Shown here in pieces: positions 6,519-56,271 of a stretch of 64,000 nucleotides of DNA. Position numbers and translations under genes: made by a program. This DNA comes from Clostridia bacterium (GTDB lineage Bacteria; Bacillota; Clostridia; Oscillospirales; Acutalibacteraceae). The first letter of the stretch is position 1. Each line of letters begins with the position of its first letter. The notes under the pieces are model-generated. The model did not search any database. It was given only the letters and a program-made list of their open reading frames with translations, and was not told the origin of the DNA. Location of the stretch: NCBI GenBank assembly GCA_017548045.1, contig JAFYNR010000022.1:1-64000 (forward strand), given 5' to 3'.

Positions 6519-6533
6519 AGAATCCTCCTGAAA

Positions 6534-7802: not shown

Positions 7803-7814
7803 CAAAACCACTCC

Positions 7815-12200: not shown

Positions 12201-12211
12201 ATAAAATAATA

Positions 12212-12269
12212 ACCCCGATACAAACGGGCAATACTTTTATTGCCATTAACTGTATCGGGGTGATTTTTT
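12212..12269 (+). terminator. Hairpin that ends the upstream gene and covers the sigG ribosome binding site
   Basis: ACCCCGATACA (12212-12222) pairs perfectly with TGTATCGGGGT (12251-12261); T6 follows at 12264-12269. An inner stem GGCAATA/TATTGCC (12227-12233, 12238-12244) sits in the loop. The right arm contains GGGGTGAT, the only plausible Shine-Dalgarno of sigG, and the T run runs into its TTG start. Read-through RNA from 11169 would be terminated or left untranslated. Confidence 0.7.
12227..12236 (+). promoter_or_regulatory. sigG: Sigma-F-like -10 element inside the hairpin loop
   Basis: GGCAATACTT fits the sigma-F -10 consensus GGNRANAMTW at every position. The -35 fifteen bases upstream (TAATA, 12207-12211) matches only three of five. 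Initiation about seven bases downstream would give an RNA lacking the left arm of the hairpin. Part of the match is forced by the inner palindrome, so it could be coincidence. Confidence 0.45.
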
Positions 12270-13044: not shown

Positions 13045-13049
13045 AAAAT

Positions 13050-13078
13050 GCCTCGTCTGTGCGACGAGGCGTTTTTTT
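13050..13078. terminator. Terminator after sigG, shared with the convergent phosphoesterase gene
   Basis: GCCTCGTC (13050-13057), loop TGTGC, GACGAGGC (13063-13070), then seven T residues; six A residues precede the stem, so it can work in both directions. The T run reaches the stop codon of the opposite gene. Confidence 0.9.
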
Positions 13079-14444: not shown

Positions 14445-14462
14445 TATTATTTCCTCCTCTTT

Positions 14463-15152: not shown

Positions 15153-15172
15153 ACAACTCCCCCTTAATTCAT

Positions 15173-16911: not shown

Positions 16912-17938
16912 TTGCCGCACCCCTTTCAGCGATATATGCGGCAATAAGCCTTGCCGTGCTTTCAATATCCGCAAGGTCACAGACCTCTGCGGCAGTATGC
17001 ATATTTCTCAGAGGCACGGAAATAAGCGCGGTTTTGACACCCTTGCCTGCAATCTGAATATTATCGCAGTTTGTGCCCGTTCTTCCGCCCATAACCTCCG
17101 TCTGATTTGCGATTCCGTTTTTCTCTGCAATTTCAGCAAGCTTTTTGCTCATAGCGTAGTCAAGCGACGGACCGTAGCCTATCATTGCACCCTCGCCGAG
17201 AGTTGCATATTTATCTCCGCTTACCGAAGGTGCTTTTGCAAAGCTCACGTCAACAGCTATCGCTTCATCCGCCTGCATAGTAAATGCACCTGCCGACGCA
17301 CCGCTTCCGCCCGTTTCCTCCTGCACCGAGAAAAGAACGCTTATTTTGCAGCCGTGCAGTTTACCTTCAAGAAGCTGAAGGCTTCTTAAAATCGCCGCAA
17401 CGCCTGCCCTGTCATCAACAGAGGGTGCGCATATTCTGTTGCCGAGAAGCCGCTTGTATTCACCGTTAAAGGTTATTCTGTCGCCGGGAGAAACGTATCT
17501 GACCGCTTCCTCACGGCTCATACCGATGTCAACCGCAATATCATCAAAGCCCTTTGCCTTGTTTGTATCCTCGGGCTTTGAAAGATGGGGCGGTGTCGAC
17601 GTTATGACGCCGAAAAGCTTTTCTTTTCCGTGCACGGTAACCTCCGATGCCGCAAGAACACGGATATCCGCACCGCCGCATTTTGTCACCTTCAGAAAGC
17701 CGTCACTATCAATCGCCGTCACAACAAGACCTATCTGATCAAGATGTGCATCAAGCAGAACGTGAGGGCCTTTGCCTTCAAACGTACCCGTAACACTGCC
17801 GAGAGGGTCGATGCTTACGGGCATATATTTGCTCAGAAGCTCCGACGCAACCGCCGCCGCTTCATTCTCCGCACCCGAAACTCCGCTTACACTGCAGAGC
17901 TTTTCGAGCAAAGCGGATACTTCACTGTAATTACTCAT
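16904..17938 (-). CDS. M42 family metallo-aminopeptidase, second copy
   Basis: 344 residues from ATG 17938 (GGAAGG eight bases upstream). Ligand motifs: DAHLDQIG, VDDRAGVAAI, QEETGGSGASAGAF, VDVSFAKAP and RNMHTAAEV. It differs from its neighbour in most positions outside the motifs, so the two may form a mixed complex or split substrates. First gene of the tight peptidase-GNAT group, behind a leader hairpin at 17962-17999. Confidence 0.9.
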   Translation of the reverse strand: MSNYSEVSALLEKLCSVSGVSGAENEAAAVASELLSKYMPVSIDPLGSVTGTFEGKGPHVLLDAHLDQIGLVVTAIDSDGFLKVTKCGGADIRVLAASEVTVHGKEKLFGVITSTPPHLSKPEDTNKAKGFDDIAVDIGMSREEAVRYVSPGDRITFNGEYKRLLGNRICAPSVDDRAGVAAILRSLQLLEGKLHGCKISVLFSVQEETGGSGASAGAFTMQADEAIAVDVSFAKAPSVSGDKYATLGEGAMIGYGPSLDYAMSKKLAEIAEKNGIANQTEVMGGRTGTNCDNIQIAGKGVKTALISVPLRNMHTAAEVCDLADIESTARLIAAYIAERGAANA

Positions 17939-17961
17939 AAGAAATACCTTCCGAACAACTT

Positions 17962-17999
17962 CGGGGTGCCCCGTATAAGCAGTGCATACAGGCTCACCC
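17962..17999 (-). other. Leader hairpin between galK and the M42 genes
   Basis: On the minus strand GGGGTG pairs with CACCCC around an inner CCTGTAT/ATACGGG pairing. It could be a galK attenuator or an RNA-processing site; there is no T run, so a full terminator is unlikely. Confidence 0.4.
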
Positions 18000-18013
18000 C
18001 TCAATAGATTTTA

Positions 18014-20204: not shown

Positions 20205-21152
20205 ATGAAAATCACCGTTCTTGACGGCTATACCGAAAACCCCGGCGACCTTTCCTGGGATTGGCTTGAAGGACTTGGCGAATGCACTGTCTATGACCGC
20301 ACACCGCCCGAGCTTATTGCAGAAAGATGCGAAGGCTGTCAGATTATAATAACCAACAAAACACCCTTATGCAAAAATCTGCTTGAAACCCTTCCCGACC
20401 TTAAATACGTGGGTCTGCTGAGCACAGGCTATAATATCGTTGATTGGGAATACTGCAAGGAGAAAAATATTCCCGTTTGCAACATACCGTCATACAGCAC
20501 AAATGCGGTTGCACAGCTTGTTTTTGCTCTCATTCTTGAACACACCAATTCCGTTGCTCTTCACAGCAGTTCCGTTCACGGCGGCGAATGGAGCGCCTGC
20601 AAGGATTTCTGTTATTGGAAGGCTCCCCTCTCGGAGCTTTGCGGCAAAACTCTGGGCATTATCGGCTTCGGTAAAATAGGCAAGGCGGTTGCAAAAATCG
20701 CCTCAGCCTTCGGAATGAACGTCGTCGCCTCCACAAATCACCCCGCACCCTTTGAAAACGTTCAATTCTGTGAAAGGGATGAACTTCTTGCAAAAAGCGA
20801 TTTCGTCACTCTCCACTGCCCTCTTACACCCCTTACGGAGGGTATGGTAAATGAAGATTTTCTTTCAAAAATGAAAAAATCAGCCGTTTTAATCAACACT
20901 TCAAGAGGTCAGGTCATTAATGAAAAGGCTCTTGCACACGCCCTTGAAAACGGTATAATCGCAGGTGCGGGTCTTGACGTGCTTGAGGTTGAACCGCCAA
21001 AAGAAAGCTGCCCCTTAATCGGCGCAAAAAACTGCTTCATTACACCCCACATTGCCTGGGCCGGCTTCGAAACCCGTGAAAGACTTATGGGTATATGCCG
21101 CAAAAACGTTGAGGCTTTTCTCAGCGGAAGCCCCGTTAATCTCGTATGGTGA
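20205..21152 (+). CDS. D-2-hydroxyacid dehydrogenase (NAD-dependent)
   Basis: 315 residues. The Rossmann loop GFGKIGKAVAKIASAFGM (154-171) and catalytic triad R234 (TSRGQVIN), E263 (EVEPP) and H282 (TPHIAWAG) are all present, as in glycerate, hydroxypyruvate and phosphoglycerate dehydrogenases. It reduces a 2-keto acid or oxidises a D-2-hydroxy acid; the exact substrate is unclear. The next gene, a heptose-phosphate kinase, starts 10 bases later, so it may serve the same sugar pathway. Confidence 0.9.
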   Translation: MKITVLDGYTENPGDLSWDWLEGLGECTVYDRTPPELIAERCEGCQIIITNKTPLCKNLLETLPDLKYVGLLSTGYNIVDWEYCKEKNIPVCNIPSYSTNAVAQLVFALILEHTNSVALHSSSVHGGEWSACKDFCYWKAPLSELCGKTLGIIGFGKIGKAVAKIASAFGMNVVASTNHPAPFENVQFCERDELLAKSDFVTLHCPLTPLTEGMVNEDFLSKMKKSAVLINTSRGQVINEKALAHALENGIIAGAGLDVLEVEPPKESCPLIGAKNCFITPHIAWAGFETRERLMGICRKNVEAFLSGSPVNLVW

Positions 21153-21162
21153 GGAATAAAAA

Positions 21163-22140
21163 ATGGTAATATCACAAACACCCATGCGTATGTCCTTTTT
21201 CGGCGGCGGAACGGATTTTCCCGAATTTTTCAGAGAACATTCCGGTGCGGTTATTTCAACAACCTTTGACAAATACTGTCACGTAAACGTCAGGGAGATG
21301 CCCGATTTATTCGAATACAAAACCTATCTTTCCTACGCAAAAATAGAAAAAGTCTGCTCTGCCGACGAGGTTCAGCATCCTGCCATACGCAATGCAATGA
21401 AATGGCTGGGTCTTGAAAAAATCTGCCTCAATTATGATGCCGACGTGCCTGCAAAAACGGGTCTGGGCACAAGCAGTGCTTTTTCGGTAGGTATGCTGAA
21501 CGCTTTTTATGCAATGCTGGGCGAAGAAAAAACAAAGCGTCAGCTTGCAGACGGTGCCATATATCTTGAACGCACGCTTTGCAATGAAGACGGCGGTATT
21601 CAGGATCAGATAGCCTCGGCTTTCGGCGGATTCAACCGCATTGATTTCACCGAAGAAGGCTACACCGTAACCCCCATCACCTTCTGCGAAGGCAGAAAGG
21701 AGCAGCTTGAAGAAAACCTTATGCTCTTTTTCACGGGACTTTCGCGCTATTCCTTTCAGGTTCAGAAAACAACAAAAAAATTGCTATCCCGTAACATCGA
21801 CAGGCTTCTGAAAATGCTGAAAATGGTTGACGAGGCAGAGGATATACTCACAAATCCCGAAAGGAATCTCAACGATTTCGGCTATCTTCTCAATGAAACC
21901 TGGCTTGAAAAAAGGGAAATAAGCTCCGAAATCTCAACGGATTACATAGACGTTGCCTATAAAAAAGCCGTTGAAGCAGGTGCACTGGGCGGCAAGCTTC
22001 TGGGTGCAGGCGGCGGCGGATGTCTGCTTTTTTATGCTGAAAAAGACAGGCAGGAGGATGTAAGGAAGGCTCTTTCGGGTATGCACGAATTTCCTTTCAG
22101 ATTCGAAAATGAAGGCACTAAAATCATATGCAAATATTAA
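21163..22140 (+). CDS. hddA: GHMP kinase, D-glycero-D-manno-heptose-7-phosphate kinase type
   Basis: 325 residues. Motifs: PMRMSFFGGGTDFPEFF (sugar-binding N-terminus), AKTGLGTSSAFSVGML (ATP loop) and KLLGAGGGGCLLFY (C-terminal motif). The FGGGTD form and length fit the HddA branch, which phosphorylates heptose-7-phosphate at C1 on the way to GDP-D-glycero-D-manno-heptose; related kinases act on fucose or other sugars. The fused heptose nucleotidyltransferase/bisphosphatase 475 bases downstream supports the heptose reading. RBS GAGGAAT. A terminator-like hairpin follows. Confidence 0.8.
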   Translation: MVISQTPMRMSFFGGGTDFPEFFREHSGAVISTTFDKYCHVNVREMPDLFEYKTYLSYAKIEKVCSADEVQHPAIRNAMKWLGLEKICLNYDADVPAKTGLGTSSAFSVGMLNAFYAMLGEEKTKRQLADGAIYLERTLCNEDGGIQDQIASAFGGFNRIDFTEEGYTVTPITFCEGRKEQLEENLMLFFTGLSRYSFQVQKTTKKLLSRNIDRLLKMLKMVDEAEDILTNPERNLNDFGYLLNETWLEKREISSEISTDYIDVAYKKAVEAGALGGKLLGAGGGGCLLFYAEKDRQEDVRKALSGMHEFPFRFENEGTKIICKY

Positions 22141-22142
22141 AG

Positions 22143-22177
22143 CAAGGAGTCGTTTCCCGTAAGGAAGCGGCTCCTTG
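22143..22177 (+). terminator. Hairpin after hddA
   Basis: CAAGGAGTCGTTTCC (22143-22157), loop CGTAA, GGAAGCGGCTCCTTG (22163-22177): a 15-pair stem with two G-U pairs. The downstream TTCTCTT is only a weak T tract, so termination may be partial. Confidence 0.65.
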
Positions 22178-22182
22178 TTCTC

Positions 22183-22211
22183 TTGACTTTTACATTATTA
22201 TATGTTATCTT
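22183..22211 (+). promoter_or_regulatory. Possible promoter of the cupin-to-radical-SAM operon
   Basis: TTGACT (22183-22188) followed after 17 bases by TATCTT (22206-22211); a better TATAAT (22211-22216) sits at 22 bases. It lies directly after the hairpin and 40 bases before the cupin start. Confidence 0.4.
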
Positions 22212-22250
22212 ATAATGTGAATTTTTATGCTTATAACCGAGGTCAGAATA

Positions 22251-22613
22251 ATGATTGAAATAATAAAACCCGATTTCATTTTCGAGGATGACAGAGGCTC
22301 TCTCGTTCAGCTTATTCACGAAGGATACCGCCAGATAAACGTTGTCACGTCAAAGGCAGGCGTTGAAAGAGGCAACCACTTTCACCGTCTGAACAGAGAA
22401 GGCTTTTACGTTGTTGAGGGTGCATTTCTGCTCGAAGTAAGCCTTGACGGCAAAAGCGAAAGCCATGAATTCGTAAAGGGCGATATGTTCATCATTAACC
22501 CTATGGTTATGCACAGATTCGTTTACCGTGAGGATACTACCCTCGTTGCATTTTATGACAATGGGGTTGAGCTTCCCGACGGTACGAAAGATATAATTGC
22601 GGAGGCGGATTGA
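22251..22613 (+). CDS. Cupin-fold protein of the sugar-nucleotide epimerase/isomerase type
   Basis: 120 residues from ATG 22251 (GAGGTC six bases upstream; the upstream ATG at 22227 lacks a site). A single cupin barrel with metal-ligand-like GNHFHRLNREGFYVVEG and a later MVMHRF. The DDRGSL opening resembles WxcM/FdtA/CapF-type proteins that epimerise or isomerise NDP-4-keto sugars. Exact reaction unknown. Its stop is one base from the start of the nucleotidyltransferase fusion, so the two are translated together. Confidence 0.65.
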   Translation: MIEIIKPDFIFEDDRGSLVQLIHEGYRQINVVTSKAGVERGNHFHRLNREGFYVVEGAFLLEVSLDGKSESHEFVKGDMFIINPMVMHRFVYREDTTLVAFYDNGVELPDGTKDIIAEAD

Positions 22614-22614
22614 T

Positions 22615-23868
22615 TTGGAAGCGGTTGTTCTTGCAGGCGGCTTCGGCACACGGCTGAAGGGCTGCATCGATAATATTCCCAAGCCTCTTGCGCCCGTAGA
22701 CGGCAAGCCCTTCCTTTGCCTTCTGCTGGATTATCTCTATGCCAACGGCGTTCACCGCGCGGTTATTTCCACGGGCTATCTTGCCGAAAAGGTTGAGGAA
22801 GCCATCGGCGGCAGATACCGCGGCATGACAATCGAATACAGCGTTGAGGATACTCCCCTCGGCACAGGAGGCGGCATAAAAAAAGCTTTGAGAATGTGCA
22901 AGGAAAATGACGTTATAGTTTGCAACGGCGACTCATTTTTTGACGTAAACCTCTTTGAAATGAAGAAGTTTCACGAAGAATCGGGCTGTGACGTAACTCT
23001 TGCCGCAAAGTTCATTGAAAATGCTCACCGTTCGGGTCTGCTTGAGTTTTCAAACGGCAGACTTCAGGGCTTTACCGAAAACGGAGTTGCACCCTCCGGG
23101 CACATAAACGGCGGCGTTTATTTTGTAAAGCGTACACTGCTCGAAGGGGTAACGGAAGATAAATTCTCATTTGAAAACGATATTCTTGCAAACAAAGCTT
23201 ACGGTATCGGCGTATACGAAAGCGACGGATATTTTATCGATATCGGTGTACCCGAATCCTATACCCTTGCGCAAAAAGAAAAAAGCAGACTCATATCATC
23301 ACGCAAAAGACGTGCGGTTTTCCTTGACCGTGACGGAACGATAAACAAGGATACCGTTCACACCCACCGCACGGAGGATTTTGAATTTCTTACCCTTGCG
23401 GATAAAGCCGTTGCCGAGCTCAAAGAAAAGGGATATCTCGTTATCATTATCACAAATCAGGCAGGCATTGCAAAGGGTCTTTACGGAGAAGATGATATGC
23501 ATATTTTTCACAGCCATATCGATAAGCTTCTTTCCGAAAATTACTCGGTTATTCCCGACGGTTATTATTACTGCCCCCACCATCCCGATGCGGCTGCTGA
23601 GAAATACCGCCTTGACTGCCTCTGCAGAAAGCCTGCCCCCGGGCTTATACTCAGAGCCGTTGAGGATTTTGAGAAAACAGGCATACGTATCGATTTGAAA
23701 AACAGCTTCACAATCGGCAACAGACTTTCAGATATTCTTGCAGGCAAAAATGCAGGAATTGAAAATAACATTCTTATCGGCAACGACGAAAAAGACGAAA
23801 ACGGCGTTGCATCACAGGCATACGGCAGCCTTTACGAAGCCGTTAACAATATAAAGCAGGTGTTTTGA
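22615..23868 (+). CDS. Fusion of heptose-1-phosphate nucleotidyltransferase and heptose bisphosphate phosphatase
   Basis: 417 residues from TTG 22615 (GGAGG nine bases upstream). Residues 1-225 are an NTP transferase: LAGGFGTRL (6-14), KPLAPVDGKPFL, NGDSFFDV, GHINGGVY. Residues 230-417 are a GmhB-type HAD phosphatase: FLDRDGTINKD (D238, D240), ITNQAGIAKGLY and zinc ligands C320, H322, C335, C337. The fused enzyme would dephosphorylate heptose-1,7-bisphosphate and make an NDP-heptose (HddC-like). In the last HAD motif the usual GD reads GN (IGNRLSD), replacing a magnesium ligand. No isomerase (gmhA) lies in the window. Confidence 0.82.
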   Translation: MEAVVLAGGFGTRLKGCIDNIPKPLAPVDGKPFLCLLLDYLYANGVHRAVISTGYLAEKVEEAIGGRYRGMTIEYSVEDTPLGTGGGIKKALRMCKENDVIVCNGDSFFDVNLFEMKKFHEESGCDVTLAAKFIENAHRSGLLEFSNGRLQGFTENGVAPSGHINGGVYFVKRTLLEGVTEDKFSFENDILANKAYGIGVYESDGYFIDIGVPESYTLAQKEKSRLISSRKRRAVFLDRDGTINKDTVHTHRTEDFEFLTLADKAVAELKEKGYLVIIITNQAGIAKGLYGEDDMHIFHSHIDKLLSENYSVIPDGYYYCPHHPDAAAEKYRLDCLCRKPAPGLILRAVEDFEKTGIRIDLKNSFTIGNRLSDILAGKNAGIENNILIGNDEKDENGVASQAYGSLYEAVNNIKQVF

Positions 23869-23870
23869 AT

Positions 23871-25778
23871 TTGAAAAACGTTTATTTCATTCAGGTAGGA
23901 TTTGCATTTGACAAATCGGTTTACCTTCCCTATGCAACAGGCACCATAGTTGCATACTGCAAGGCACAGCCTGACATAGCGGAAGAATACACATTCCCGG
24001 AAATCATTTTCCGCAGGGATGATGTTGAGGCAATAGCCGACGGTATGGATAACCCCTATCTCGTTGCATTCTCAACCTACGTATGGAACGTTGAATTCAA
24101 TAAAGTGCTTGCAAAGGCCGTCAAGGAAAAGTATCCCGAATGTATTGTTGTTTTCGGCGGTCACAGTGTTTCTGACAGAATGGAGTTCCTTTCAAAGGAT
24201 TATATTGATATACTTACTCTCGGGGAAGGTGAAGAAGTAACGGCAAATCTTCTCCGTGCCCTTCGCGACGGCACCGACCTTTCCGAATGTGCAGGCATTG
24301 CTTTCAGAGATACCGACGGCTGTAACATTCTTACCCCACCCTACTGCCCCGATAGCCTTGAGGACTATCCCTCACCCTATCTCACGGGTGTTTTTGATTC
24401 AATCATTGAGAAAAATCCCGACGTGATGTTCGATACGATAATTGAAACCAACCGGGGCTGCCCGTACAACTGCGCATACTGCGACTGGAGCAACCATAAA
24501 AAGCTCCGTCTTTTCCCTATGGAAAAGGTCAAGGGTGAGCTTCGATGGCTTTCGGACCATAACATAGAATATTGCTTCTGCGCCGATGCAAACTTCGGTA
24601 TATTTGAGCGTGACGAAGAAATTGCACAGTACATTGTTGAGCTCAACAAGCAGACGGGCTTTCCCAAGGTATTCCGCCCCTGCTACGAAAAAAACAGTGC
24701 GGAGAGGGTTTTCAGAATTTCAAAGGCTCTGAATTCAAGAGGTCTTGACAAGGGCGCAACCATGGCTTATCAGACCCTCTGCGATGACGCGCTGAAAATC
24801 ATCAACCGAAAGAATCTGACAATGGAGCATTTTTCGGGGCTTATGGCAGACTATAACAGAGCCAATATCCCCACGTATTCTGAGCTCATTCTCGGCTTAC
24901 CCGGCGAAACGGCAGAAAGCTTCTGTCAGGGCCTTTGCAAGCTTCTCAGGGCAGGTCAGCACAATTCCATAAGCGTATATTACTGCGAATTGCTGCCCAA
25001 CGCACCCATGTGCAACCCCGACTTTATGAAAGAGCACAAAATTGAGCCTATGAAGGTTCAGTTTAACCATATTCATTCCGCAAGCGGCAAAAAGGACGGC
25101 ATACCCGAATATTCATACCTTGTCCGTTCCACAAGCACCCTGCCCCGTGACGGCTGGGTTTACGCAAATCTTTTTTCTATCTGCCTTCAATGCTTTCACA
25201 GCCTGGGCTTACTGCGCTATTTTGCCATTTACGCTTACTACGCGCTGAGCCTTGACTATTACGATTTTTATTCCGGTCTTCTTGACTTCTGTCTTGAAAG
25301 CGAAGGCAGAATCGGCGGCCTTTTCAGAGAAATCAAGCGCAAGCTTGACGGCTCGCTGGAGGGTGACTGGAATCACAGTAACCCCGTTTTCGGCAACGTA
25401 ACCTGGTTTTTTGAAGAAGGTCTTTTCCTTGAGCTTCTTTATGACTCAAAAGAATACGAAAAAATTATTGACGGATACGTAAGAAGCCTGGGAATTGACG
25501 GAGACGTTTTTGCAGAGCTTTGCAAATTCCAGATAAACGCCGTGAAAAAGCCTTTTGAAAGCGGTAAGGCTTTTGAATGCGGCTATGATTTTGCTTCATA
25601 CTTTTCAAACGTATCCGCAGAAAATCCCCTTCCCGAAAAGAAAAAGACCGCCTATATCTTTGAGGCGGCAAAGGTTTACGATAACTGGCCTGCATTTGCC
25701 AAAGAAACCGTATGGTACGGCAGACGCAAGGGCGCAACCCTCTATACAAACAACATCTCCGCCGTAAAATCGGTATAA
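23871..25778 (+). CDS. Radical SAM protein, paralog A1 of a four-member family
   Basis: 635 residues. I choose TTG 23871 (AAAAACGTT follows) because the paralogs begin MKN/MKR at the same place. Residues 1-130 form a Rossmann-like, B12-binding-type domain (YLPYATG, VAFSTYVWN, VVFGGH, GEGE) without the DxHxxG cobalamin motif. The [4Fe-4S] motif is C197-x3-C201-x2-C204 followed by DW (GCPYNCAYCDW). The barrel continues ADANFGIFERD and ELILGLPGETAESF, with about 260 further family-specific residues ending in WYGRRKGATLYTN. Reaction unknown. Closest paralog is at 54346-56271. Confidence 0.88.
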   Translation: MKNVYFIQVGFAFDKSVYLPYATGTIVAYCKAQPDIAEEYTFPEIIFRRDDVEAIADGMDNPYLVAFSTYVWNVEFNKVLAKAVKEKYPECIVVFGGHSVSDRMEFLSKDYIDILTLGEGEEVTANLLRALRDGTDLSECAGIAFRDTDGCNILTPPYCPDSLEDYPSPYLTGVFDSIIEKNPDVMFDTIIETNRGCPYNCAYCDWSNHKKLRLFPMEKVKGELRWLSDHNIEYCFCADANFGIFERDEEIAQYIVELNKQTGFPKVFRPCYEKNSAERVFRISKALNSRGLDKGATMAYQTLCDDALKIINRKNLTMEHFSGLMADYNRANIPTYSELILGLPGETAESFCQGLCKLLRAGQHNSISVYYCELLPNAPMCNPDFMKEHKIEPMKVQFNHIHSASGKKDGIPEYSYLVRSTSTLPRDGWVYANLFSICLQCFHSLGLLRYFAIYAYYALSLDYYDFYSGLLDFCLESEGRIGGLFREIKRKLDGSLEGDWNHSNPVFGNVTWFFEEGLFLELLYDSKEYEKIIDGYVRSLGIDGDVFAELCKFQINAVKKPFESGKAFECGYDFASYFSNVSAENPLPEKKKTAYIFEAAKVYDNWPAFAKETVWYGRRKGATLYTNNISAVKSV

Positions 25779-25800
25779 ACTTCGAAAGGCTCGTGATGAG

Positions 25801-27720
25801 TTGAAACGCAATTTCTACTTTTTCCAGGTTAATTATTCATACGGCAAAGCGGCACATCTGCCTTACACCGCAGGTCAGCTTTCCGCATATGCTTTTGCAG
25901 ACAAGGACGTTGCGGAAAATTATCACCTTGAAAGAATATTTTTTCTTCGCGACTCGGTTGACAGTGTAATGAGCAAAATCAGCAGCCCTTTCCTCGTTGC
26001 TTTTTCAACCTATATCTGGAACTGCAATTTCAACAAGGCGGTTGCAAAAAGAATAAAAGAAAAATATCCCGACTGCAAAATCGTTTTCGGCGGTCACCAC
26101 GTTGCACCCGGAGGCGGTATGCTCGAGGAATGCCCTTATATCGATTACCTTCTTCACGGCGAAGGCGAGATAACACTGCGCCGTCTTATGCGCTCGCTTA
26201 TCGGGCTTGACGACGCCGAAAAAATACCCGGCATTTCTCTGAGAACAAAAAACGGTATCATCACCAACCCGCAGATGATATCCGAGGAATGTGATTTCCC
26301 CTCACCTTACCTTAACGGATATTTTGATAAAATACTTGCAGAAAACCCCGACACGGATTTTATGGCGCTTATCGAAACCTCCCGAGGCTGCCCCAACTCC
26401 TGCGCATACTGCGACTGGAGCAATATGAAATCAAAAATCCGTAAATTCCCCATCGAAAGAGTTTATGCGGAAATCGATTGGGTGAGCAGTAACAGAGTCT
26501 ACGGTCTGGGCTCCGCCGATTCAAACTTCGGAATGTTCAGACGTGACCTTGAAATAACTGACAGAATAGTCGAGGCTCATAAGGCAACGGGCAGACCCGT
26601 AGGCTTTCAGACGTCCTATGCAAAAAACAGCACTAAAACCGTTTTTGACATCGGAATGAAGCTTGAAAAGAACGGGCTCAACAAAGGCATCACACTCTCA
26701 TTTCAATCAATGAGCGATGAAGTGCTCAAAAATATAGGTAGAGAAAACATAAGCATCGAATATTATTCGGAGCTTATGAGAATGTATAACGAAGCGGGCG
26801 TTGCCACGTACACGGAGCTTATTCTGGGGCTTCCCGGTGAAACCTACGAAACCCTTGTTGACGGAATTGACAGACTTCTTCAGCTCGGTCAGCATAACTC
26901 CATTTACATTCACAACTGCGAGTGGCTCCCCTGCTCAATTATGGGGCAGAAGGATTACGTTGAAAAATACGGCATAAGAACGTCGCATATTCCTCTTAAT
27001 CAGCCCCACAGAGAGGCTGATGACAAGGATGAAATCCCCGAAGCCTCCGGCATAGTCACCGAAACGTACTCTATGTCCCGTAATGACTGGAAAAAAATGA
27101 ATCTGTTTTCCACTGTTGTTCAGTGTTATCATCATATGGGTATTCTGCAGTTTTTTGCAATTTTTCTTTACGAGCACGGAATTTGTTCCTACAAGGATTT
27201 CTATAATTCTCTGCTTGAATTTGCATTAAGCAAGCCGTCAACCGTAATCGGCAGAGCTTTCGCGGAAATTCAGCGCAAGCTGGATGACGTAATCAACGAA
27301 AAAGATGCACCCAATTGTGTTGATAAACGCTTCGGTAACATAATGTGGACACCCGAAGAATACGCCTTTCTCTATACCGTTTATGAATCGGAGCTTTTTT
27401 ATGAAGAAATAAAAGATTTCCTTTCGGAATATTTTGAGGATGCGGAATTTTTCTGTGAGCTGCTTGAGTTTCAGAAAAAGATGCTCAAGCATCCCTTTGA
27501 TGAGGATTTTACGTTTGTCTGTAATTATAATTTTGCAGATTATTTCAAGTCAATCATCAACAGCCGCAGTTCGTCACTGACAGAAGAAAAATGCACGGTT
27601 TCCGTAGAAGCAAAGCCCTTCCTCTCGTGGGAAGACTTTGCAAGGAAGGTTGCCTGGTACGGAAGAAAGGATTCAAGCTGTACTTACATAAACCGTGCAA
27701 AACAGGATGCTGTGCTGTAG
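25801..27720 (+). CDS. Radical SAM protein, paralog A2
   Basis: 639 residues from TTG 25801 (MKRNFYFFQVNY). Same plan as A1: HLPYTAG, VAFSTYIWN, KEKYPDCKIVFGGHH, HGEGE, PSPYLNGYFD, then the cluster motif C197, C201, C204 in SRGCPNSCAYCDW. The barrel has ADSNFGMFRRD (A1 has ADANFG) and ELILGLPGETYETL with LGQHNSIYIHNCEWLP. The C-terminus ends WYGRKDSSCTYIN. It lies 22 bases after A1 in the same operon, so it probably acts on the same or a successive intermediate. Confidence 0.88.
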   Translation: MKRNFYFFQVNYSYGKAAHLPYTAGQLSAYAFADKDVAENYHLERIFFLRDSVDSVMSKISSPFLVAFSTYIWNCNFNKAVAKRIKEKYPDCKIVFGGHHVAPGGGMLEECPYIDYLLHGEGEITLRRLMRSLIGLDDAEKIPGISLRTKNGIITNPQMISEECDFPSPYLNGYFDKILAENPDTDFMALIETSRGCPNSCAYCDWSNMKSKIRKFPIERVYAEIDWVSSNRVYGLGSADSNFGMFRRDLEITDRIVEAHKATGRPVGFQTSYAKNSTKTVFDIGMKLEKNGLNKGITLSFQSMSDEVLKNIGRENISIEYYSELMRMYNEAGVATYTELILGLPGETYETLVDGIDRLLQLGQHNSIYIHNCEWLPCSIMGQKDYVEKYGIRTSHIPLNQPHREADDKDEIPEASGIVTETYSMSRNDWKKMNLFSTVVQCYHHMGILQFFAIFLYEHGICSYKDFYNSLLEFALSKPSTVIGRAFAEIQRKLDDVINEKDAPNCVDKRFGNIMWTPEEYAFLYTVYESELFYEEIKDFLSEYFEDAEFFCELLEFQKKMLKHPFDEDFTFVCNYNFADYFKSIINSRSSSLTEEKCTVSVEAKPFLSWEDFARKVAWYGRKDSSCTYINRAKQDAVL

Positions 27721-27758
27721 TATCAGACTCATTTTTATAACAAATCAGGAGAGAGAAA

Positions 27759-29684
27759 ATGAAAAACATCTATATGGTGCAGGCATCCAACACCTATTCG
27801 GGCCAGAATTTCAAGGCGGCATATCTGCCTTACGCCGTAGGTCTGTTGGTTGCAAATGCATTCACAAATGAAACGGTTAAACTGAATTACGAATTCAAGC
27901 GGTTTATATTTATCCGCGAAAAAATTGAAAATGCATTGGCAAGCCTTGAAAACCCTGCGGTTGTGGGCTTTTCAAATTATGTCTGGAACACAAAATATAA
28001 CCTTACCCTTGCAGAAAAAATCAAAGAAAAATATCCCGACTGCGTAATCGTTTTCGGCGGTCACAACGTTGCAGGCGGCGAAAATTCATTTCTCGACAGA
28101 TATGCTTTCATAGATTATCTTATCAGAGGCGAAGGCGAAGATGCTTTTTGCAGCCTTCTTTGTGAGCTTTGCAAAGAAAAGCCCGATTTTTCATCGGTGA
28201 GCAATCTTTCATACCGCCGTGACGGCAAAGCGATCCATAATCCCGTTGAAACGCTTACCCGCATCGACTACCCCTCGCCCTACCTTACGGGTCTTTTCGA
28301 CAGCATATATGAGGAAAATCCCGATATGCAGCTTGATGCAATACTTGAAACCAGCCGCGGCTGTCCCAACTCCTGCGCCTACTGCGACTGGGGCTGCAAC
28401 AATCAGAAAATCAAGCGTTTCCCGATTGAAAGAATTTATGCCGAAATTGATTGGCTTGCAGAGCATAAAACAAAATTCATCTGGGGTGCGGATGCAAACT
28501 TCGGAGCATTTGAGCGCGACCTTGACATTGTTGATTATTTCGTAGGCGTAAGAGAAAAAACGGGCTACCCTGAAAGGCTGAGAATCAACTATGCAAAGGC
28601 AAATCCTCTCAGAGTTTTTGAAATCAACAAGCAGCTTGAACAGCATAATCTGACCAAGCAAGGCGCTACGATTTCATTCCAGAGCCTTAACCCCGAAACC
28701 CTTGAAAATATCGGCAGAAGGAATATGAATCTGGAATCCTTCAGCGAGCTTCTTTCACTTTACAGAAAAGAGGGTATCACGGTTTATTCAGAGCTTATTG
28801 TGGGTCTTCCCGGCGAAACCTACGAAAGCTTCTGCAACGGTATCGGAAAGCTCCTTGCCGCAGGTCAGCACAGACTTATCACAACCTATATGTGTGTGCT
28901 TCTTCCCAACTCCCCCATGGCAGACCCCGACTATGTGGAAAAGCACGGCATTATTACGGTTGAAGTGCCGTTCCTTGTGGCTCACACAAATGACGAGGAT
29001 GACGTTGTTGAAACCACGTCATACATCATCGGCACCGATACGATGAGCCCTGAGGATTGGATAAAGGCAAATATTTTCACCTGCTTTGAAGAATCCTACC
29101 ACCATTTCGGAATTCTCAAATTCATTGCAATTTATCTTTTCACAAAGTTTAACATACCCTATGAAAAATTCTATAACGACGTTATAAATTCCTCACTTGA
29201 AAATAAAAATTCGGTTGCGTACTCCGCATACAGAAAACTTTACGATTACTATAAATCCATAACCGAAAGCGAGCCTATCTCACTTTATCAGAACGATATT
29301 TTCGGAGAACTTTCCTGGAGCAACAACCTTCTCGCATTCCTTGATACAATATACAGAATAGACACCTTCTATGACGAAATCAGGCCCCTGCTTCAGGGCT
29401 ACGGTGTTCCCGACAGCATTATTGATGAGCTTATCCGCTATCAGAAAACCGTACTGAAATTGCCGGGAAGGAACAATTTCAGCGAGGATTTCAGCTGTAA
29501 CTGGCACCATTATTTCAAGGGTGTTATTGAAGACTGTCCCGTTGAGCTTGAAGAAAAGCCCAACACGGTGAAGGTAATGAATAAATCCGTACCCTATAAC
29601 TGGAAGGAATGGGCGCTCGAATCCGTATGGTTCAATAAAAACGGAATCACCTTCAATCCCGTGGTAAAAGTTGAATACAAATAA
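27759..29684 (+). CDS. Radical SAM protein, paralog A3
   Basis: 641 residues, ATG 27759 with an AGGAGAG site. Motifs: YLPYAVG, VGFSNYVWN, KEKYPDCVIVFGGHN, RGEGED, PSPYLTGLFD and the cluster C202, C206, C209 (GCPNSCAYCDWGC). The barrel has GADANFGAFERD and ELIVGLPGETYESF. It is the most diverged: the substrate-facing loop reads YMCVLLPNSPMADP and the tail is WFNKNGITFNP, without the Arg-rich motif. Last gene before the terminator at 29689-29714. Confidence 0.88.
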   Translation: MKNIYMVQASNTYSGQNFKAAYLPYAVGLLVANAFTNETVKLNYEFKRFIFIREKIENALASLENPAVVGFSNYVWNTKYNLTLAEKIKEKYPDCVIVFGGHNVAGGENSFLDRYAFIDYLIRGEGEDAFCSLLCELCKEKPDFSSVSNLSYRRDGKAIHNPVETLTRIDYPSPYLTGLFDSIYEENPDMQLDAILETSRGCPNSCAYCDWGCNNQKIKRFPIERIYAEIDWLAEHKTKFIWGADANFGAFERDLDIVDYFVGVREKTGYPERLRINYAKANPLRVFEINKQLEQHNLTKQGATISFQSLNPETLENIGRRNMNLESFSELLSLYRKEGITVYSELIVGLPGETYESFCNGIGKLLAAGQHRLITTYMCVLLPNSPMADPDYVEKHGIITVEVPFLVAHTNDEDDVVETTSYIIGTDTMSPEDWIKANIFTCFEESYHHFGILKFIAIYLFTKFNIPYEKFYNDVINSSLENKNSVAYSAYRKLYDYYKSITESEPISLYQNDIFGELSWSNNLLAFLDTIYRIDTFYDEIRPLLQGYGVPDSIIDELIRYQKTVLKLPGRNNFSEDFSCNWHHYFKGVIEDCPVELEEKPNTVKVMNKSVPYNWKEWALESVWFNKNGITFNPVVKVEYK

Positions 29685-29688
29685 AGAA

Positions 29689-29714
29689 GAGAGCTTTGGT
29701 TACCCAAAGCTCTC
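29689..29714. terminator. Bidirectional terminator between the radical SAM operon and the membrane gene
   Basis: GAGAGCTTTGG (29689-29699), loop TTAC, CCAAAGCTCTC (29704-29714), perfect 11 pairs, between convergent genes. Confidence 0.8.
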
Positions 29715-29721
29715 TCTTCGT

Positions 29722-30689: not shown

Positions 30690-31625
30690 ATGCTTAACAT
30701 TCTCGTTACCGGCGGTGCAGGCTACATAGGCTCCGTGCTGGTCCCCCTGCTCCTCTCAAAAGGCTGCCGCGTAACCGTACTCGATAACCTTTTTTACAAT
30801 CAGAATCCTCTGCTTGAATGCTGTGCAAACCCTGATTTCACTATGATTAATGCAGATGCACGCAACGAAAATGCAGTTAAAGAAGCTATGAAGGGTAAGG
30901 ATTATATAATTCCCCTTGCCGCACTTGCAGGCTTCCCTATCTGTGACAAGGAAGCGTGTTCGGCATACTCCATAAACTACGACGCAATCAAAATGATTCT
31001 TCGTTTGAGAGAAAAGGGTCAGCGCATCATTTTCCCCTGCACAAACAGCGGATACGGTTTGGGTGAAGGTGAAAAATTCTGCACGGAAAATTCGCCCATA
31101 AAGCCCATTTCTATATACGGAAAAAGCAAGGTTGAAGCAGAAGCCGCCGTGCTCAGCGAAAGCGGTACAACCGCATTCCGCTTTGCCACTCTTTTCGGCG
31201 CTTCTCCCAGAATGAGAACCGACCTGCTTGTAAACGATTTTGTATACCGTGCCGTTTTTGACCGCACACTGGTTGTTTTTGAAGGCAATTTCAAAAGAAA
31301 TTATCTTCACGTCAGAGATGCGGCAAATGCATTTTGGTTTGCCATTGAAAACTTTGAAAGAATGGAAGGCGGCACCCATAACTGCGGTCTGTCCGACTCC
31401 AATCTGTCAAAAATAGAACTTTGTGAAAAAATCAAGGCGATTATTCCAAAATTCACCTATATAGAAGCTCCCGTAGGCGAAGACCCCGACAAGCGGAATT
31501 ACATAGTCTCAAACGAAAAGCTTGAAAGCCTCGGCTGGTCGCCCGTATACTCCCTTGATGACGGAATTATCGAGCTTACCAAAGCCTATCAGATAATCAA
31601 AAACAACCGCTTCTCTAATATATAA
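30690..31625 (+). CDS. NAD-dependent epimerase/dehydratase (extended SDR)
   Basis: 311 residues. Nucleotide-binding loop GGAGYIGS (8-15) and catalytic Y143-x3-K147 (YGKSK); the substrate side has NSGYGLGEGEKF and FKRNYLHVRDAANAF, as in sugar-nucleotide epimerases and dehydratases. It likely acts on an NDP-sugar at C4, but the specific reaction cannot be assigned. It is a single-gene unit with its own promoter and terminator, one kilobase beyond the radical SAM operon, and could supply the same pathway. Confidence 0.85.
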   Translation: MLNILVTGGAGYIGSVLVPLLLSKGCRVTVLDNLFYNQNPLLECCANPDFTMINADARNENAVKEAMKGKDYIIPLAALAGFPICDKEACSAYSINYDAIKMILRLREKGQRIIFPCTNSGYGLGEGEKFCTENSPIKPISIYGKSKVEAEAAVLSESGTTAFRFATLFGASPRMRTDLLVNDFVYRAVFDRTLVVFEGNFKRNYLHVRDAANAFWFAIENFERMEGGTHNCGLSDSNLSKIELCEKIKAIIPKFTYIEAPVGEDPDKRNYIVSNEKLESLGWSPVYSLDDGIIELTKAYQIIKNNRFSNI

Positions 31626-31633: not shown

Positions 31634-31665
31634 GAGGATGTGTTCTGAACACATCCTCTTTTTTT
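31634..31665 (+). terminator. Terminator after the SDR gene
   Basis: GAGGATGTGT (31634-31643), loop TCTGA, ACACATCCTC (31649-31658), then a run of seven T residues that reaches the stop codon of the convergent gene. Confidence 0.88.
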
Positions 31666-32887
31666 ATGCCGAAAGTCCGTAAGGCTGCATCGTAGCGTAC
31701 ACAATAAAGATTATTGCAAGCAGTACGGTTTTGTCTTTGAAATATGCACCCAACTGCTGTGCCGTCTTTTTGAAGGGCTCATCCTTCGTAACAACCATAA
31801 GCATTGCCATGGCAAACTGAGTTATGATTGCAGACTGGAACCAACGGATAAAGTCCTGTGCAACAAGCATTCCCAGAGGAATGGTAAATACAGAAAGCAT
31901 AAAGCACAGGTAAACAAATCTTCTGACCTTGCTTTCCGTATTCTTCATACACATCACCCATACCGCCCAGAATGCGGCAATAATTGCTCCGCCGAATATG
32001 CTAAGCGATATTGTATGAGTAAGTGAAATATCTGCAAGGTTTACTCCTGCCATCAGCTTCATACGCTCCAGAGCAGATGCACCGGCAACCATTTCAGGCG
32101 TAACACCCGTGCCTTCGGGAGGAATATCAAGCAGATAGAAGGCTATATTGTCAATACCGAAATCCGTGTAGGTATATCCGCCTCTGAATCTGAGAGCTTC
32201 AACAAGCTGTTCATAAGTCATTGCTGCGGTGCCTGCACCCTTAACGGAAACCCAGAGAGTTGCAACAACGGCAACTGCACAGGAAATAATAAACACCAGG
32301 GAAGTTGCAATCTTTTTCTCTTTTGTAATTGCAAGATAAAATGCCGCAAGCGCAATAAGCGGAAAATAGGTTATTGCAAAACCGTTGTGTATGAATACTC
32401 CCACCGCGCAAAGCACGGGAACAAGCCACTGAAGATATTTATTGCCAAGGCAAAGCAAGGCAACAAACGCAACAACGAACATCCAGATATCAAGAATTCC
32501 GAGATAAACCGAAAAATTTGAGAAGGTAAACATTCCCGTAACCGCAAATAAAGCCAGCACAAGGGTCTGCACCTTTATTTCACTGTCGGAGCATTTTATT
32601 ACTTTTCCTATACCAACCGCAGATAAAAGCAGTGTAAACCCAAGCACAATCATGCAGAAGCCTGCAATCCACTCCGGGGTAGGATCGGGATTAAAAAGCT
32701 TCACGATTGAGCCCACAAGAAGTCTTGATGTCTTACCCATCGAATAGTCGATAAGGTAATAAAGCCTTGTATACTCACCTACGCTGAAATCGGGATACAG
32801 CTTATATATCGCCTGAACTGCAAGCACAATAAAAATACAAAGCTCGTATTTTATTGAAGAAAATATTTTGGCAGCCTTTGTTTTCAT
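31664..32887 (-). CDS. Hypothetical polytopic membrane protein, in the amino-acid ABC operon
   Basis: 407 residues from ATG 32887 (AAGGTGG eight bases upstream; the GTG at 32899 lacks a site). Ten or more membrane helices. There are extracytoplasmic loops with acidic and aromatic residues (YTYTDFGIDNIAF) and an early MGKTSRLLVGSIV. The layout recalls membrane enzymes of surface-glycan assembly, but I see no diagnostic motif. It starts 24 bases after the ABC ATPase gene, so it is the fourth gene of that operon, which is unexpected for an amino-acid importer. Confidence 0.6.
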   Translation of the reverse strand: MKTKAAKIFSSIKYELCIFIVLAVQAIYKLYPDFSVGEYTRLYYLIDYSMGKTSRLLVGSIVKLFNPDPTPEWIAGFCMIVLGFTLLLSAVGIGKVIKCSDSEIKVQTLVLALFAVTGMFTFSNFSVYLGILDIWMFVVAFVALLCLGNKYLQWLVPVLCAVGVFIHNGFAITYFPLIALAAFYLAITKEKKIATSLVFIISCAVAVVATLWVSVKGAGTAAMTYEQLVEALRFRGGYTYTDFGIDNIAFYLLDIPPEGTGVTPEMVAGASALERMKLMAGVNLADISLTHTISLSIFGGAIIAAFWAVWVMCMKNTESKVRRFVYLCFMLSVFTIPLGMLVAQDFIRWFQSAIITQFAMAMLMVVTKDEPFKKTAQQLGAYFKDKTVLLAIIFIVYATMQPYGLSA

Positions 32888-32911
32888 CAGCCAAACCACC
32901 TTAACTAAAAA

Positions 32912-53600: not shown

Positions 53601-53614
53601 CGTCACCACCTTTT

Positions 53615-54345: not shown

Positions 54346-56271
54346 TCAGTTCTCCGTATATTCAAGCGTTATCTTCTCCCTTGGGTTTGTGCAAAGGGTT
54401 GCGCTTCTGCGTTTGCCGAACCAGATGATTTCTTTGGCATATTCATCCCAGCAGTCAATCTCTTTCTCAAGAACAATATTCAATCTGTTTTTCTTCTTTT
54501 CAAGAGGCTGACGGTTATTTCCATATACATTCTCAAAATAATTGTAGAAATCATAATCGCTTTCAACCGTAACGGTTCTCTGACCGGGCAGACGGATTAT
54601 GCTTTTCTGATAATTGTAAAGATTTTCAAAAATATTTTCTTCTATGCCGAGAGAGAGAAGAAAATCATATATTTCATCCCAGAAGGTTTCAAAGTGATAG
54701 GCAAGGTCAAGAAAAACGCCTTCCTCAAAATACCAGCCTACGGTGCTGAACAGGTCATTCTGATAATACCATTCGGCTTTAACGGTATCATCCTGCTTCT
54801 CTCTTATCGACTCAAAAAGAGAATAGATATACTTTGTATCATCCGAGAAGATGTAATCATAAAGCCTGTTATAAAATTCGTAATAGGGCATATCAAGCTC
54901 ATACCTTGTATAAACGGCAAAGCAACGAAGCATACCCAGATGATGAAAGCCCTGAAGCACGGCGGAAAATACGTTTGCCTTGACCCAATCCGCCTTGCTC
55001 ATGGTTGAGGTTTCGACAATGGCATCGTAATATTCCTGAATTCCCTGAAAATTAGGCGAATAGTGCAAGCCCAGGAAAGGAACTCTTTCCCACTTTATGC
55101 CGAATTTTTCTTTGTATTCGGGCTGTGCAACGGGTGCGTTACAGTAAACCTGGCAGGTATAAACCGCCATGGAGTTATGCTGACCCGCATCAAGAAGATA
55201 GCAGAGTCCGTTACAGAAACTTTCATAGGTTTCGCATGGCAGACCGAGTATAAATTCCGTGTAGGTGGGGATTCCCTCTGCGGAATACCTGGAATTGAGC
55301 TTTGTATAGTATTCAACGTCAAGATTTTTTCTGCCGATATTTTCAAGCGTTTCAGGGTTAAGGGACTGGTAAGCAAGAGTTACTCCCTTATCAATTCCGC
55401 TGTTGTTGAGAAGCTTGCCGATTTCAAAAACATTTTCGTCACTGTTTTTTGCATAGCAGGGCTTGAAAATTCTGGGATAGCCCGTTTTTTTATTTGTATC
55501 AACAACATACTGTGCAATTTCAAGATCTCTCTGAGAAATACCGAAATTGGCATCTGCACAGTAACAGTAGGGTATTTTATGTGCAGATATCCACTCAATC
55601 TCCGCTTTTACCCTTTCCATAGGAATATATCGGAGTTTTTCGGTGTAACACCAGTTACAGAAAGCACAGGAATAAGGGCAGCCTCTGTTGGTTTCAAGTA
55701 TTGCGTGAAATTCCACGTTGGGGAATGCCCGGAAAAAGCCGTCAAAATAACCGTTGAGATAAGGTGACGGCATATCGTCAAGAGGCACGCAGAAGCTTTC
55801 CTCCGGAGTTGTGATAATCTCTCCGTTCAGACGAAGAGACGTGTTGGTAAGTGATGAAAAATCACCGCTGTCAACCGCTTTGATGAGGTTTGCAAAGCTC
55901 TTTTCACCTTCACCGTGAATAAGGGCATCCACATACGGACATTCTTCAAGAACGGAAGTGTTAAAGGGTATGTTATGACCTCCGAAAACAATGAAGCAAT
56001 CGGGATATTTTTCCTTTATTTTCTTTGCAAGCACCTTGTTGTATTCCATATTCCACACAAGGCAGGAAAAGCCGAATATAAAGGGATTTTCAATACGTGC
56101 CAAAACGTCTTCGGGCTTTTCGCGCATAAAAAACAGCTCACCCAGACGAAATCTGCTTTTAATTTCTTCGTCATTCCACGCATATGCGGCAATACAGCCC
56201 GCACCGTATGGCAGGTAAGCAAAATCACAGTATGTTACGTTAAATTGGGAAAGATAAATATTCCGCTTCAT
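54346..56271 (-). CDS. Radical SAM protein, paralog B of the four-member family
   Basis: 641 residues starting MKRNIYLSQFN at ATG 56271. Motifs: YLPYGAG, KEKYPDCFIVFGGHN, HGEGE, PSPYLNGYFD, cluster C198, C202, C205 (GCPYSCAFCNW, Asn where the others have Asp), CADANFGISQRD, EFILGLPCETYESF (Cys in place of Gly-Glu), AGQHNSMAVYTCQV. The C-terminus ends IWFGKRRSATLCTN. Similarity is highest to A1 at 23871-25778 across the whole length, though the two genes are 28 kb apart on opposite strands. First gene of the operon. Confidence 0.88.
   Translation of the reverse strand: MKRNIYLSQFNVTYCDFAYLPYGAGCIAAYAWNDEEIKSRFRLGELFFMREKPEDVLARIENPFIFGFSCLVWNMEYNKVLAKKIKEKYPDCFIVFGGHNIPFNTSVLEECPYVDALIHGEGEKSFANLIKAVDSGDFSSLTNTSLRLNGEIITTPEESFCVPLDDMPSPYLNGYFDGFFRAFPNVEFHAILETNRGCPYSCAFCNWCYTEKLRYIPMERVKAEIEWISAHKIPYCYCADANFGISQRDLEIAQYVVDTNKKTGYPRIFKPCYAKNSDENVFEIGKLLNNSGIDKGVTLAYQSLNPETLENIGRKNLDVEYYTKLNSRYSAEGIPTYTEFILGLPCETYESFCNGLCYLLDAGQHNSMAVYTCQVYCNAPVAQPEYKEKFGIKWERVPFLGLHYSPNFQGIQEYYDAIVETSTMSKADWVKANVFSAVLQGFHHLGMLRCFAVYTRYELDMPYYEFYNRLYDYIFSDDTKYIYSLFESIREKQDDTVKAEWYYQNDLFSTVGWYFEEGVFLDLAYHFETFWDEIYDFLLSLGIEENIFENLYNYQKSIIRLPGQRTVTVESDYDFYNYFENVYGNNRQPLEKKKNRLNIVLEKEIDCWDEYAKEIIWFGKRRSATLCTNPREKITLEYTEN

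Follow-up and report, generated by a model that had tools for sequence, protein, structure and literature searches.

The DNA studied comprises positions 1-64,000 of contig JAFYNR010000022.1 of a Clostridia bacterium (assembly GCA_017548045.1), and this whole stretch of 64,000 nucleotides is called the window below. It contains a rightward array of seven genes encoding a D-2-hydroxyacid dehydrogenase, an HddA-like sugar kinase, a small cupin, a fusion of an HddC-like nucleotidyltransferase with a GmhB-like phosphatase, and three paralogous B12-binding radical S-adenosylmethionine (SAM) proteins, rS1, rS2 and rS3 (Table 1). Among the paralogues, only rS1 is tied to the sugar genes. Its heptose link is well supported, and that of the other radical SAM copies is weakly supported.

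Gene content of the locus

The seven genes had been proposed in an earlier reading made from the DNA letters (the sequence-only reading), and all of their open reading frames were confirmed on the plus strand at the coordinates of Table 1, with the domains it named found by profile searches. The spacing of one or two bases that it described between the cupin, fusion and rS1 genes is true with the likely start codons: the cupin stop codon TGA (22611-22613) is followed by the fusion TTG at 22615, and the fusion stop codon TGA (23866-23868) by the TTG at 23871, the likely start of rS1, whose open frame spans 23865-25778. The intergenic gaps are 22 bases between rS1 and rS2 and 38 bases between rS2 and rS3. 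A promoter-like site (22189-22216; 11 of 12) in the 86-base gap 5' of the cupin gene is a possible second transcript start, 29 such sites being found in the region against 17.9 expected. Two further elements, both outside the interval of the sequence-only reading and missed by it, are the C4-dehydrogenase-type short-chain dehydrogenase/reductase (SDR) gene and a second cluster on the opposite strand (52128-56271), composed of a fourth paralogue (rS4), a family 2 glycosyltransferase and a 493-residue (aa) B12 radical SAM protein.

Table 1. Coordinates, strand and supporting evidence of the features described in the window
Feature	Position	Strand	Evidence or remark
D-2-hydroxyacid dehydrogenase, 315 aa, accessory role	20205..21152	+	PF02826 194 bits, PF00389 86 bits
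HddA-like sugar kinase, GHMP family, 325 aa	21163..22140	+	NF049969 129 bits (cut-off 600)
Small cupin, probable sugar epimerase (putative role)	22227..22613	+	PF14667 and PF07883 over cut-off
Fusion of HddC-like nucleotidyltransferase and GmhB-like phosphatase, 417 aa	22615..23868	+	NF049965, TIGR00213; start re-set
rS1, B12-binding radical SAM protein	23871..25778	+	PF02310 and PF04055 above cut-off; start re-set
rS2, paralogous B12-binding radical SAM protein	25801..27720	+	PF02310 and PF04055 over cut-off
rS3, paralogous B12-binding radical SAM protein	27759..29684	+	PF02310 and PF04055 over cut-off
Terminator-like stem-loop, 12 pairs on the plus strand (13 on the minus strand), both flanks T-rich	29688..29715		After rS3
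Membrane protein, 286 aa, about 8 predicted helices	29722..30582	-	Hydropathy
SDR resembling Cj1427, GDP-heptose C4-dehydrogenase type	30690..31625	+	PDB 6vo6 357 bits
Polytopic membrane protein, about 9-11 predicted helices	31664..32899	-	Hydropathy
Second B12-binding radical SAM family, 493 aa	52128..53609	-	PF02310 73 bits, PF04055 70 bits
Family 2 glycosyltransferase, no predicted membrane helix	53615..54343	-	PF00535; hydropathy
rS4, fourth paralogue of the rS1 family	54346..56271	-	45% identical to rS1

The sugar genes resemble those of heptose activation. HddA is the best NCBIfam family for the kinase, which lies far below its cut-off and matches the heptose kinases 3k85 (131 bits) and 4n3o (113 bits) of the PDB. 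The nucleotidyltransferase half of the fusion has the HddC-like family NF049965 as its best family (182 bits against a cut-off of 300) and 6jq8, a '6-deoxy-D-mannoheptose pathway protein', as its best PDB match (136 bits), and the phosphatase half scores 141 bits against TIGR00213 (cut-off 149.6) and 116 bits against the GmhB structure 3l8e. The FLDRDGT, CPHHP and C-x-CRKP motifs of the phosphatase half align with GmhB structures, including residues of E. coli GmhB, and the GmhB-matching residues are invariant in 13 of 13 aligned fusions. The heptose-type description of these genes in the sequence-only reading is thus matched by the best profile and PDB hits (HddA, HddC and GmhB), although every one of them lies under its curated cut-off.

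The cupin gives a weak match to the cupin domain of CapF (29 bits). The SDR stands out in the PDB by its match to 6vo6, the next best chain reaching 82 bits; this structure, which we take to be Cj1427 of Campylobacter jejuni, is entered as a 'putative sugar-nucleotide epimerase/dehydratease'. A GmhA-like SIS protein, carrying DHFAGE and RIQE...YH motifs, is encoded on another contig (G000:C65) and scores 132.5 bits against a cut-off of 209.45 as one protein. These motifs presumably provide zinc ligands. Cj1427 oxidises C4 of guanosine diphosphate (GDP)-D-glycero-manno-heptose, with alpha-ketoglutarate as the final acceptor, according to passages of PMC10680097 and PMC7949155. The activation of the sugar by a GDP-heptose route, as predicted here, rests on homology. 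The D-2-hydroxyacid dehydrogenase adjoins HddA in 11 of 13 closest-type genus loci and is absent from L091 and L092; it was rejected as a core gene, distant-type loci being found without it, and the distant-type loci L080 and L082 have a separate 383-aa dehydrogenase that is 27-29% identical to it.

The rS1-rS3 proteins are 637-641 aa long and possess an N-terminal B12-binding domain, unmentioned in the sequence-only reading. Six copies of the family are encoded in the genome, namely rS1-rS3, rS4 and two on contig C15, the paralogues being 37-45% identical to rS1. In rS4 the B12-binding (29.9 bits) and Radical_SAM (29.0 bits) domains score just under the cut-offs, with Radical_SAM at 30.3 bits, over the cut-off, in another search. 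A profile of the six copies found TokK (485 bits) and CysS (263 bits) as its sole strong relatives in the PDB, and rS1 alone matched TokK with 309 bits over residues 7-581 (575 residues) and CysS with 172 bits over residues 66-509. The tryptophans W76 and W215 of TokK, given in passages of PMC9692996 as the cobalamin-face and SAM-contact residues, align with W74 and W208 of rS1, the W215 equivalent lying two residues past the last cluster cysteine. All 111 full-length members (family members of at least 600 aa from genus loci) retain W74 and the CX3CX2C cysteines, and 108 of them retain W208. The family therefore carries the B12-binding and CX3CX2C radical SAM domains as well as the key tryptophans of the TokK/CysS type; with the KedN5 subfamily (NF033712) it scores 230-262 bits over residues 19-442 at most, under the curated cut-off of 700. 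TokK and CysS each methylate their substrate several times in succession (as described in part of PMC8992657). Because of the likeness to these two enzymes and the kept cysteines and tryptophans, methylation is the likeliest predicted chemistry of the family. Putative successive radical steps by the paralogues on a common scaffold are possible.

Distribution of the radical SAM and sugar genes

The rS family was found in 27 of 45 genus genomes, with 3 to 8 matches each when contig-end fragments are counted (8 in G011), and was absent at E <= 1e-60 in the other 18. The two-domain fusion occurs in 20 of the 27 array-bearing genomes (the window genome, 13 genomes at 59-85% identity and 6 at 35-38%) and the nucleotidyltransferase half alone in 2 further ones, and the fusion was found in none of the 18 array-less genomes. 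At the fusion loci of the 18 (of 20) fusion genomes that were examined, HddA and rS1 were present in all 18 and the C4-dehydrogenase-type gene in 17. In the genus tree, rS1 forms an orthogroup with a single copy per genome in 17 genomes (support 1.0); rS3 (9 genomes, 1.0) and rS4 (15 genomes, 0.98) are likewise supported groups, and rS2 (13 genomes, 0.27) is unsupported. The rS2-rS4 genes share the rS1 array in some relatives (e.g. L097, L099 and L101), rS4 and the glycosyltransferase sitting inside it in several, and are located on contigs other than that of rS1 elsewhere (L076/L077 in one genome, L103/L105 in another). The three tandem paralogues of the sequence-only reading are therefore present in the window but represent only one state of a variable set, and the radical SAM-heptose gene link that it proposed holds across genomes for rS1, whereas rS2-rS4 move and the C15 pair stands alone. 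Radical SAM genes without the sugar genes, which would tell against the link, were found to some extent, 7 of the 27 array-bearing genus genomes being without the two-domain fusion.

Beyond the genus, 84,980 species genomes were scanned with the rS1 alignment by means of two peptide patterns, a non-exhaustive search that yielded 58 rS1 loci, all labelled Clostridia, Clostridiales, Clostridiaceae, Ruminococcaceae or Oscillospiraceae and many from genomes bearing ruminant-gut isolate names. A tree places the rS1 genes of the included loci in one single-copy clade (57 tips, support 0.98), in which five genomes occur twice; it omitted L139-L152 and L154, which duplicate genus genomes, and frames outside 600-760 aa, and retained the duplicates L153, L157, L158, L162 and L174. 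For gene content, 57 loci were tallied, that is the 58 minus the fragment L196. Locally these contain the cupin in 40 cases, HddA in 38, the two-domain fusion and the C4-dehydrogenase-type gene in 31 each, and an RmlD-like reductase in 29; L147 and L150 have the nucleotidyltransferase half only. A genome-wide search for the 24 loci without a local fusion found it whole elsewhere for 20 and in two pieces on two contigs for one (L192), and found none for L185, L187 and L195. Overall, 52 of the 57 rS1 loci have a two-domain fusion locally or elsewhere in the genome, as do 33 of the 36 outside the genus genomes, the other 21 loci being from the latter. A fusion was called two-domain when its match covered about 380 or more of the 417 columns or, for a local frame, when it reached at least 340 aa and 300 bits; L182 was counted as local even though the edge of the locus cuts its frame and one in-frame stop appears in the genome search.

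Among 398 phylum genomes, the rS1 family passes E <= 1e-80 in the window genome only, and a full-length fusion was found in 8 of the other 397, totals that could be low since the phylum scans scored the 3 or 4 best first-look candidates per genome. The fusion is therefore not unique to this lineage, an idea that was rejected. The 9 fusion loci of these 8 genomes served as control: an HddA relative is present in 8 of them, and none of the tested radical SAM families was found within 15-20 kilobases. The fusion and HddA are therefore an unremarkable cassette. The B12 radical SAM genes are an addition specific to this lineage and nearly always accompany the cassette. The search of genomes for co-occurrence, suggested in the sequence-only reading, accordingly sets rS1 with the fusion in 52 of 57 loci against a background of 8 in 397, while the other paralogues float.

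A candidate pathway and its alternatives

We propose that the locus encodes the sugar core of a pathway for a branched heptose, in which a GDP-heptose would undergo oxidation at C4 and C-methylation by B12 radical enzymes and be used in an envelope glycan, a proposal whose chances of being right or wrong we regard as evenly balanced. By homology, the unlinked GmhA-like isomerase would yield heptose 7-phosphate, the HddA-like kinase would phosphorylate C1, the GmhB half of the fusion would remove the 7-phosphate, the HddC half would add guanosine monophosphate to give GDP-heptose, and the Cj1427-like dehydrogenase would oxidise C4. The cupin may then epimerise beside the ketone, which the RmlD-like reductase may reduce in the more distant loci. 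With methylcobalamin and SAM, rS1 would C-methylate the sugar, possibly repeatedly like TokK and CysS, the chemistry being taken from homology, and the other paralogues may alkylate other positions or later intermediates. Finally, the glycosyltransferase and the polytopic membrane proteins would deliver the sugar to an envelope glycan or glycolipid. We infer from the genomic association, that is from gene neighbourhood, that the sugar is the methylated substrate, and neighbourhood likewise suggests its envelope destination.

The last step draws on two proteins. The family 2 glycosyltransferase is weakly like dolichol-phosphate mannose synthase (PDB 5mlz, 28 bits). For the polytopic protein at 31664-32899, Pfam gave no match to the window member and the PDB none to the profile of its family; a known fold was rejected, as the Pfam matches within the family were inconsistent (3 families, each matched by 1 of 23 members). 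Asp51, Asp349 and Arg352 are invariant in the 23 aligned members, the invariant aspartate following the first predicted helix (hydropathy), and the protein is possibly a GT-C-type glycosyltransferase. A glycosyltransferase of the dolichol-phosphate mannose synthase kind together with the invariant aspartate would be in keeping with a polyprenyl-phosphate-sugar as donor and a transferase of the GT-C type.

The closest known system for the sugar genes is the capsular GDP-D-glycero-heptose pathway of C. jejuni (Cj1424, Cj1425, Cj1152, Cj1427, Cj1430 and partners), with which the kinase, the nucleotidyltransferase and the 7-phosphatase are shared. There, GDP-heptose is made first, and a C4-dehydrogenase, an epimerase and a reductase then act on the 4-keto sugar (passages of PMC10680097 and PMC7949155). 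In contrast, the nucleotidyltransferase and phosphatase are fused here, the cupin is small and CapF-like, B12 radical SAM genes are added, and no reductase was seen in the locus type of the window. For the radical enzymes, the closest systems are the carbapenem C6 alkylases TokK and ThnK, to the former of which the likeness covers most of the length and includes the same key tryptophans, and the cystobactamid iterative methylase CysS. Three B12 radical SAM genes likewise occur in the TokK cluster, and CysS differs from the present proposal in acting on a carrier-bound aminobenzoate rather than a sugar, according to parts of PMC8992657. Unlike around TokK and ThnK, no beta-lactam genes were seen nearby, a sugar substrate is expected, and up to eight copies are present per genome (G011). 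MoeK5 of moenomycin and GenK and GenD1 of gentamicin, whose methyls sit on sugar carbons, are likened by description and not by sequence, as cases of B12 radical SAM C-methylation; to our knowledge, their antibiotic pathways have no heptose genes. All three are radical SAM methylases in antibiotic pathways (PMC8992657, in part). In line with the sequence-only reading, no described pathway with this gene set was found in the open-licence literature on radical SAM together with heptose, glycan or capsule genes, and within that literature the pathway appears undescribed, as a new combination of known enzyme kinds.

Several observations weigh against this proposal. The kinase, nucleotidyltransferase and phosphatase scores all stay under the curated NCBIfam equivalog cut-offs, so that the kinase and both fusion halves are relatives and not confirmed equivalogs. 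The GmhA-like gene is unlinked and under its cut-off, and it occurs in 23 of the 27 array-bearing and 11 of the 18 array-less genus genomes, which hardly separates the two groups; its presence was rejected as a discriminator of carriers. No HddA, fusion or dehydrogenase was found in the examined flanks of 12 of the 57 rS1 loci, five of which (L170, L173, L176, L189 and L194) have three tandem radical SAM genes and carry adjacent HddA and fusion genes at another place in the genome. Six consecutive radical SAM genes, including a broken one, are present at L187, for which no HddA and no fusion were found; L185 and L195 have HddA and no fusion. In all, 19 loci are without a local HddA, and a genome-wide search of 14 of them (leaving out L166, L180, L182, L183 and L186) found it for 11. 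Where both are local, HddA is on the strand of the fusion in 23 of 29 cases and on that of rS1 in 35 of 38, so that the genes do not always form one operon. The related genomes are also not independent, so that Fisher tests of the co-occurrence overstate its significance.

The genus adds two further exceptions. Five array-bearing genomes have neither HddA nor the fusion and carry a fucokinase/pyrophosphorylase-type protein beside the array. In G013, G029, G032 and G043, all without HddA, this is an 829-aa relative, shorter than the canonical type (example L108, 11511-13997), which is on the array contig and was found nowhere else among the 45 genus genomes; G042 has the canonical type on its array contig, and this type also occurs in G041 and in 5 array-less genomes. 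In G006 and G014, two incomplete genomes (81% and 76%), neither the kinase nor the phosphatase half is present, and the nucleotidyltransferase, the cupin and rS1 are kept. This is the pattern of L147 and L150, which belong to the loci that duplicate genus genomes and where the nucleotidyltransferase half, cupin and rS1 are kept, HddA and the phosphatase half are missing, and HddA was not found genome-wide. Since G006 and G014 keep the nucleotidyltransferase without the kinase, it must draw on another sugar 1-phosphate, which shows that the remainder of the pathway can run on another sugar phosphate, and the joint loss of kinase and phosphatase fits their shared 1,7-bisphosphate intermediate.

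Two alternatives survive this evidence best, and we consider each of them unlikely. The modified heptose may decorate a non-sugar natural product or lipid, with the radical SAM enzymes alkylating the aglycone and not the sugar. TokK and CysS, the nearest characterised relatives, act on non-sugar scaffolds, and one seven-carbon sugar does not need as many as six copies and two additional radical SAM families at a locus; in addition, the 12 loci without local kinase, fusion and dehydrogenase include L164 and L167, which hold a 2314-aa protein. Two findings stand against such an aglycone: rS1 comes immediately 3' of the fusion gene, in the window as in close relatives, and no polyketide-synthase, peptide-synthetase or carrier family was found among that part of the neighbours searched against Pfam. 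The second alternative, to which we give the same low weight, is that heptose is not the sugar which the kinase and fusion activate, the heptose label being a family name overextended. The equivalog scores, the unlinked GmhA-like gene, the fucokinase/pyrophosphorylase-type protein found by the array instead in five genomes and the two genomes without kinase and phosphatase half all speak for it. However, three heptose enzyme families and a Cj1427-type dehydrogenase agree, the GmhB half retains the residues aligned with E. coli GmhB, and a 1,7-bisphosphate intermediate predicts just the joint absence seen in G006 and G014.

It is less probable still that the co-location reflects hitchhiking on a variable surface-glycan island, with the radical SAM arrays serving another process: rS2-rS6 are mobile and in places separate, and all carriers found are, by their titles, related gut-type Clostridia, but the fusion accompanies rS1 also where the two lie apart (in 21 of the 24 genomes that have no local fusion), which hitchhiking leaves unexplained, and none of the 18 array-less genus genomes has the fusion. 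Most improbable is that the radical SAM proteins epimerise, rearrange or cyclise the sugar or its lipid carrier without methylation, as ring contractions or formations are known for some B12-dependent radical SAM enzymes (part of PMC13331322), given the nearly full-length likeness to iterative methylases and the kept cobalamin-face and SAM-contact tryptophans of TokK.

If the branched-heptose pathway is real, C-alkylation of nucleotide- or lipid-bound sugars by radical SAM enzymes would take this chemistry beyond antibiotics to the cell surface, and it would be clear why some gut Clostridia maintain as many as eight copies of an enzyme that is costly in cobalamin and SAM. A bolder and rather doubtful extension is a new class of envelope glycans with C-alkylated heptoses (from methyl- to isopropyl- or tert-butyl-branched), in which a lineage of gut Clostridia would have enlarged its TokK-type B12 radical SAM enzymes to arrays of up to six, each enzyme setting a different branch and the whole giving a strain-variable surface chemistry. 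The kinase, fusion, dehydrogenase, cupin and rS1 constitute a compact gene set for direct testing of substrates and products.

Other features of the window and of related loci

The terminator-like stem-loop after rS3 is one of 22 such sites found in the region, against 15.2 expected from shuffles. The 286-aa membrane protein that follows has no match in Pfam or NCBIfam, and its family reappears at some related loci. The 493-aa B12 radical SAM protein of the rS4 cluster has a BchE match of 160 bits, below the cut-off, and its relatives recur in arrays. A flavin adenine dinucleotide (FAD) oxidoreductase and a 2Fe-2S/FAD reductase, possible electron donors, are located inside radical SAM arrays (L097 18678 to L098 1277; L103 8906-11475).

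The presence of rS1 in viruses or on plasmids was rejected: no rS1 relative was confirmed on viral contigs, and the 13 plasmid records that match are at most 37% identical. The best of these matches lies on the megaplasmid of Streptantibioticus cattleyicolor, a thienamycin producer, with no feature annotated at that place in the record.

The two family members on contig C15 are in tandem (L009, 10534-14381), and no kinase or fusion relative was found beside them; three of their neighbours were compared with Pfam and comprise a beta-helix protein, a LeuA/HMGL-type enzyme and one protein without a match. In three relatives (L078, L079 and L104), a comparable site holds an orthologue of one of the pair, rS5. 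In L164 (2869-9810) and L167 (2868-9809), the 2314-aa open frame lies directly 5' of rS1, beside an aminotransferase and a carbamoyltransferase, the L164 copy having no Pfam match at 1e-5. L195 contains a single 1294-aa open frame (6100-9981) with apparently two radical SAM family units, and L184 has four consecutive copies of the polytopic membrane protein after rS1 (11930-16985). In the window itself, two M42 aminopeptidase genes are adjacent in tandem at 15895-18004.

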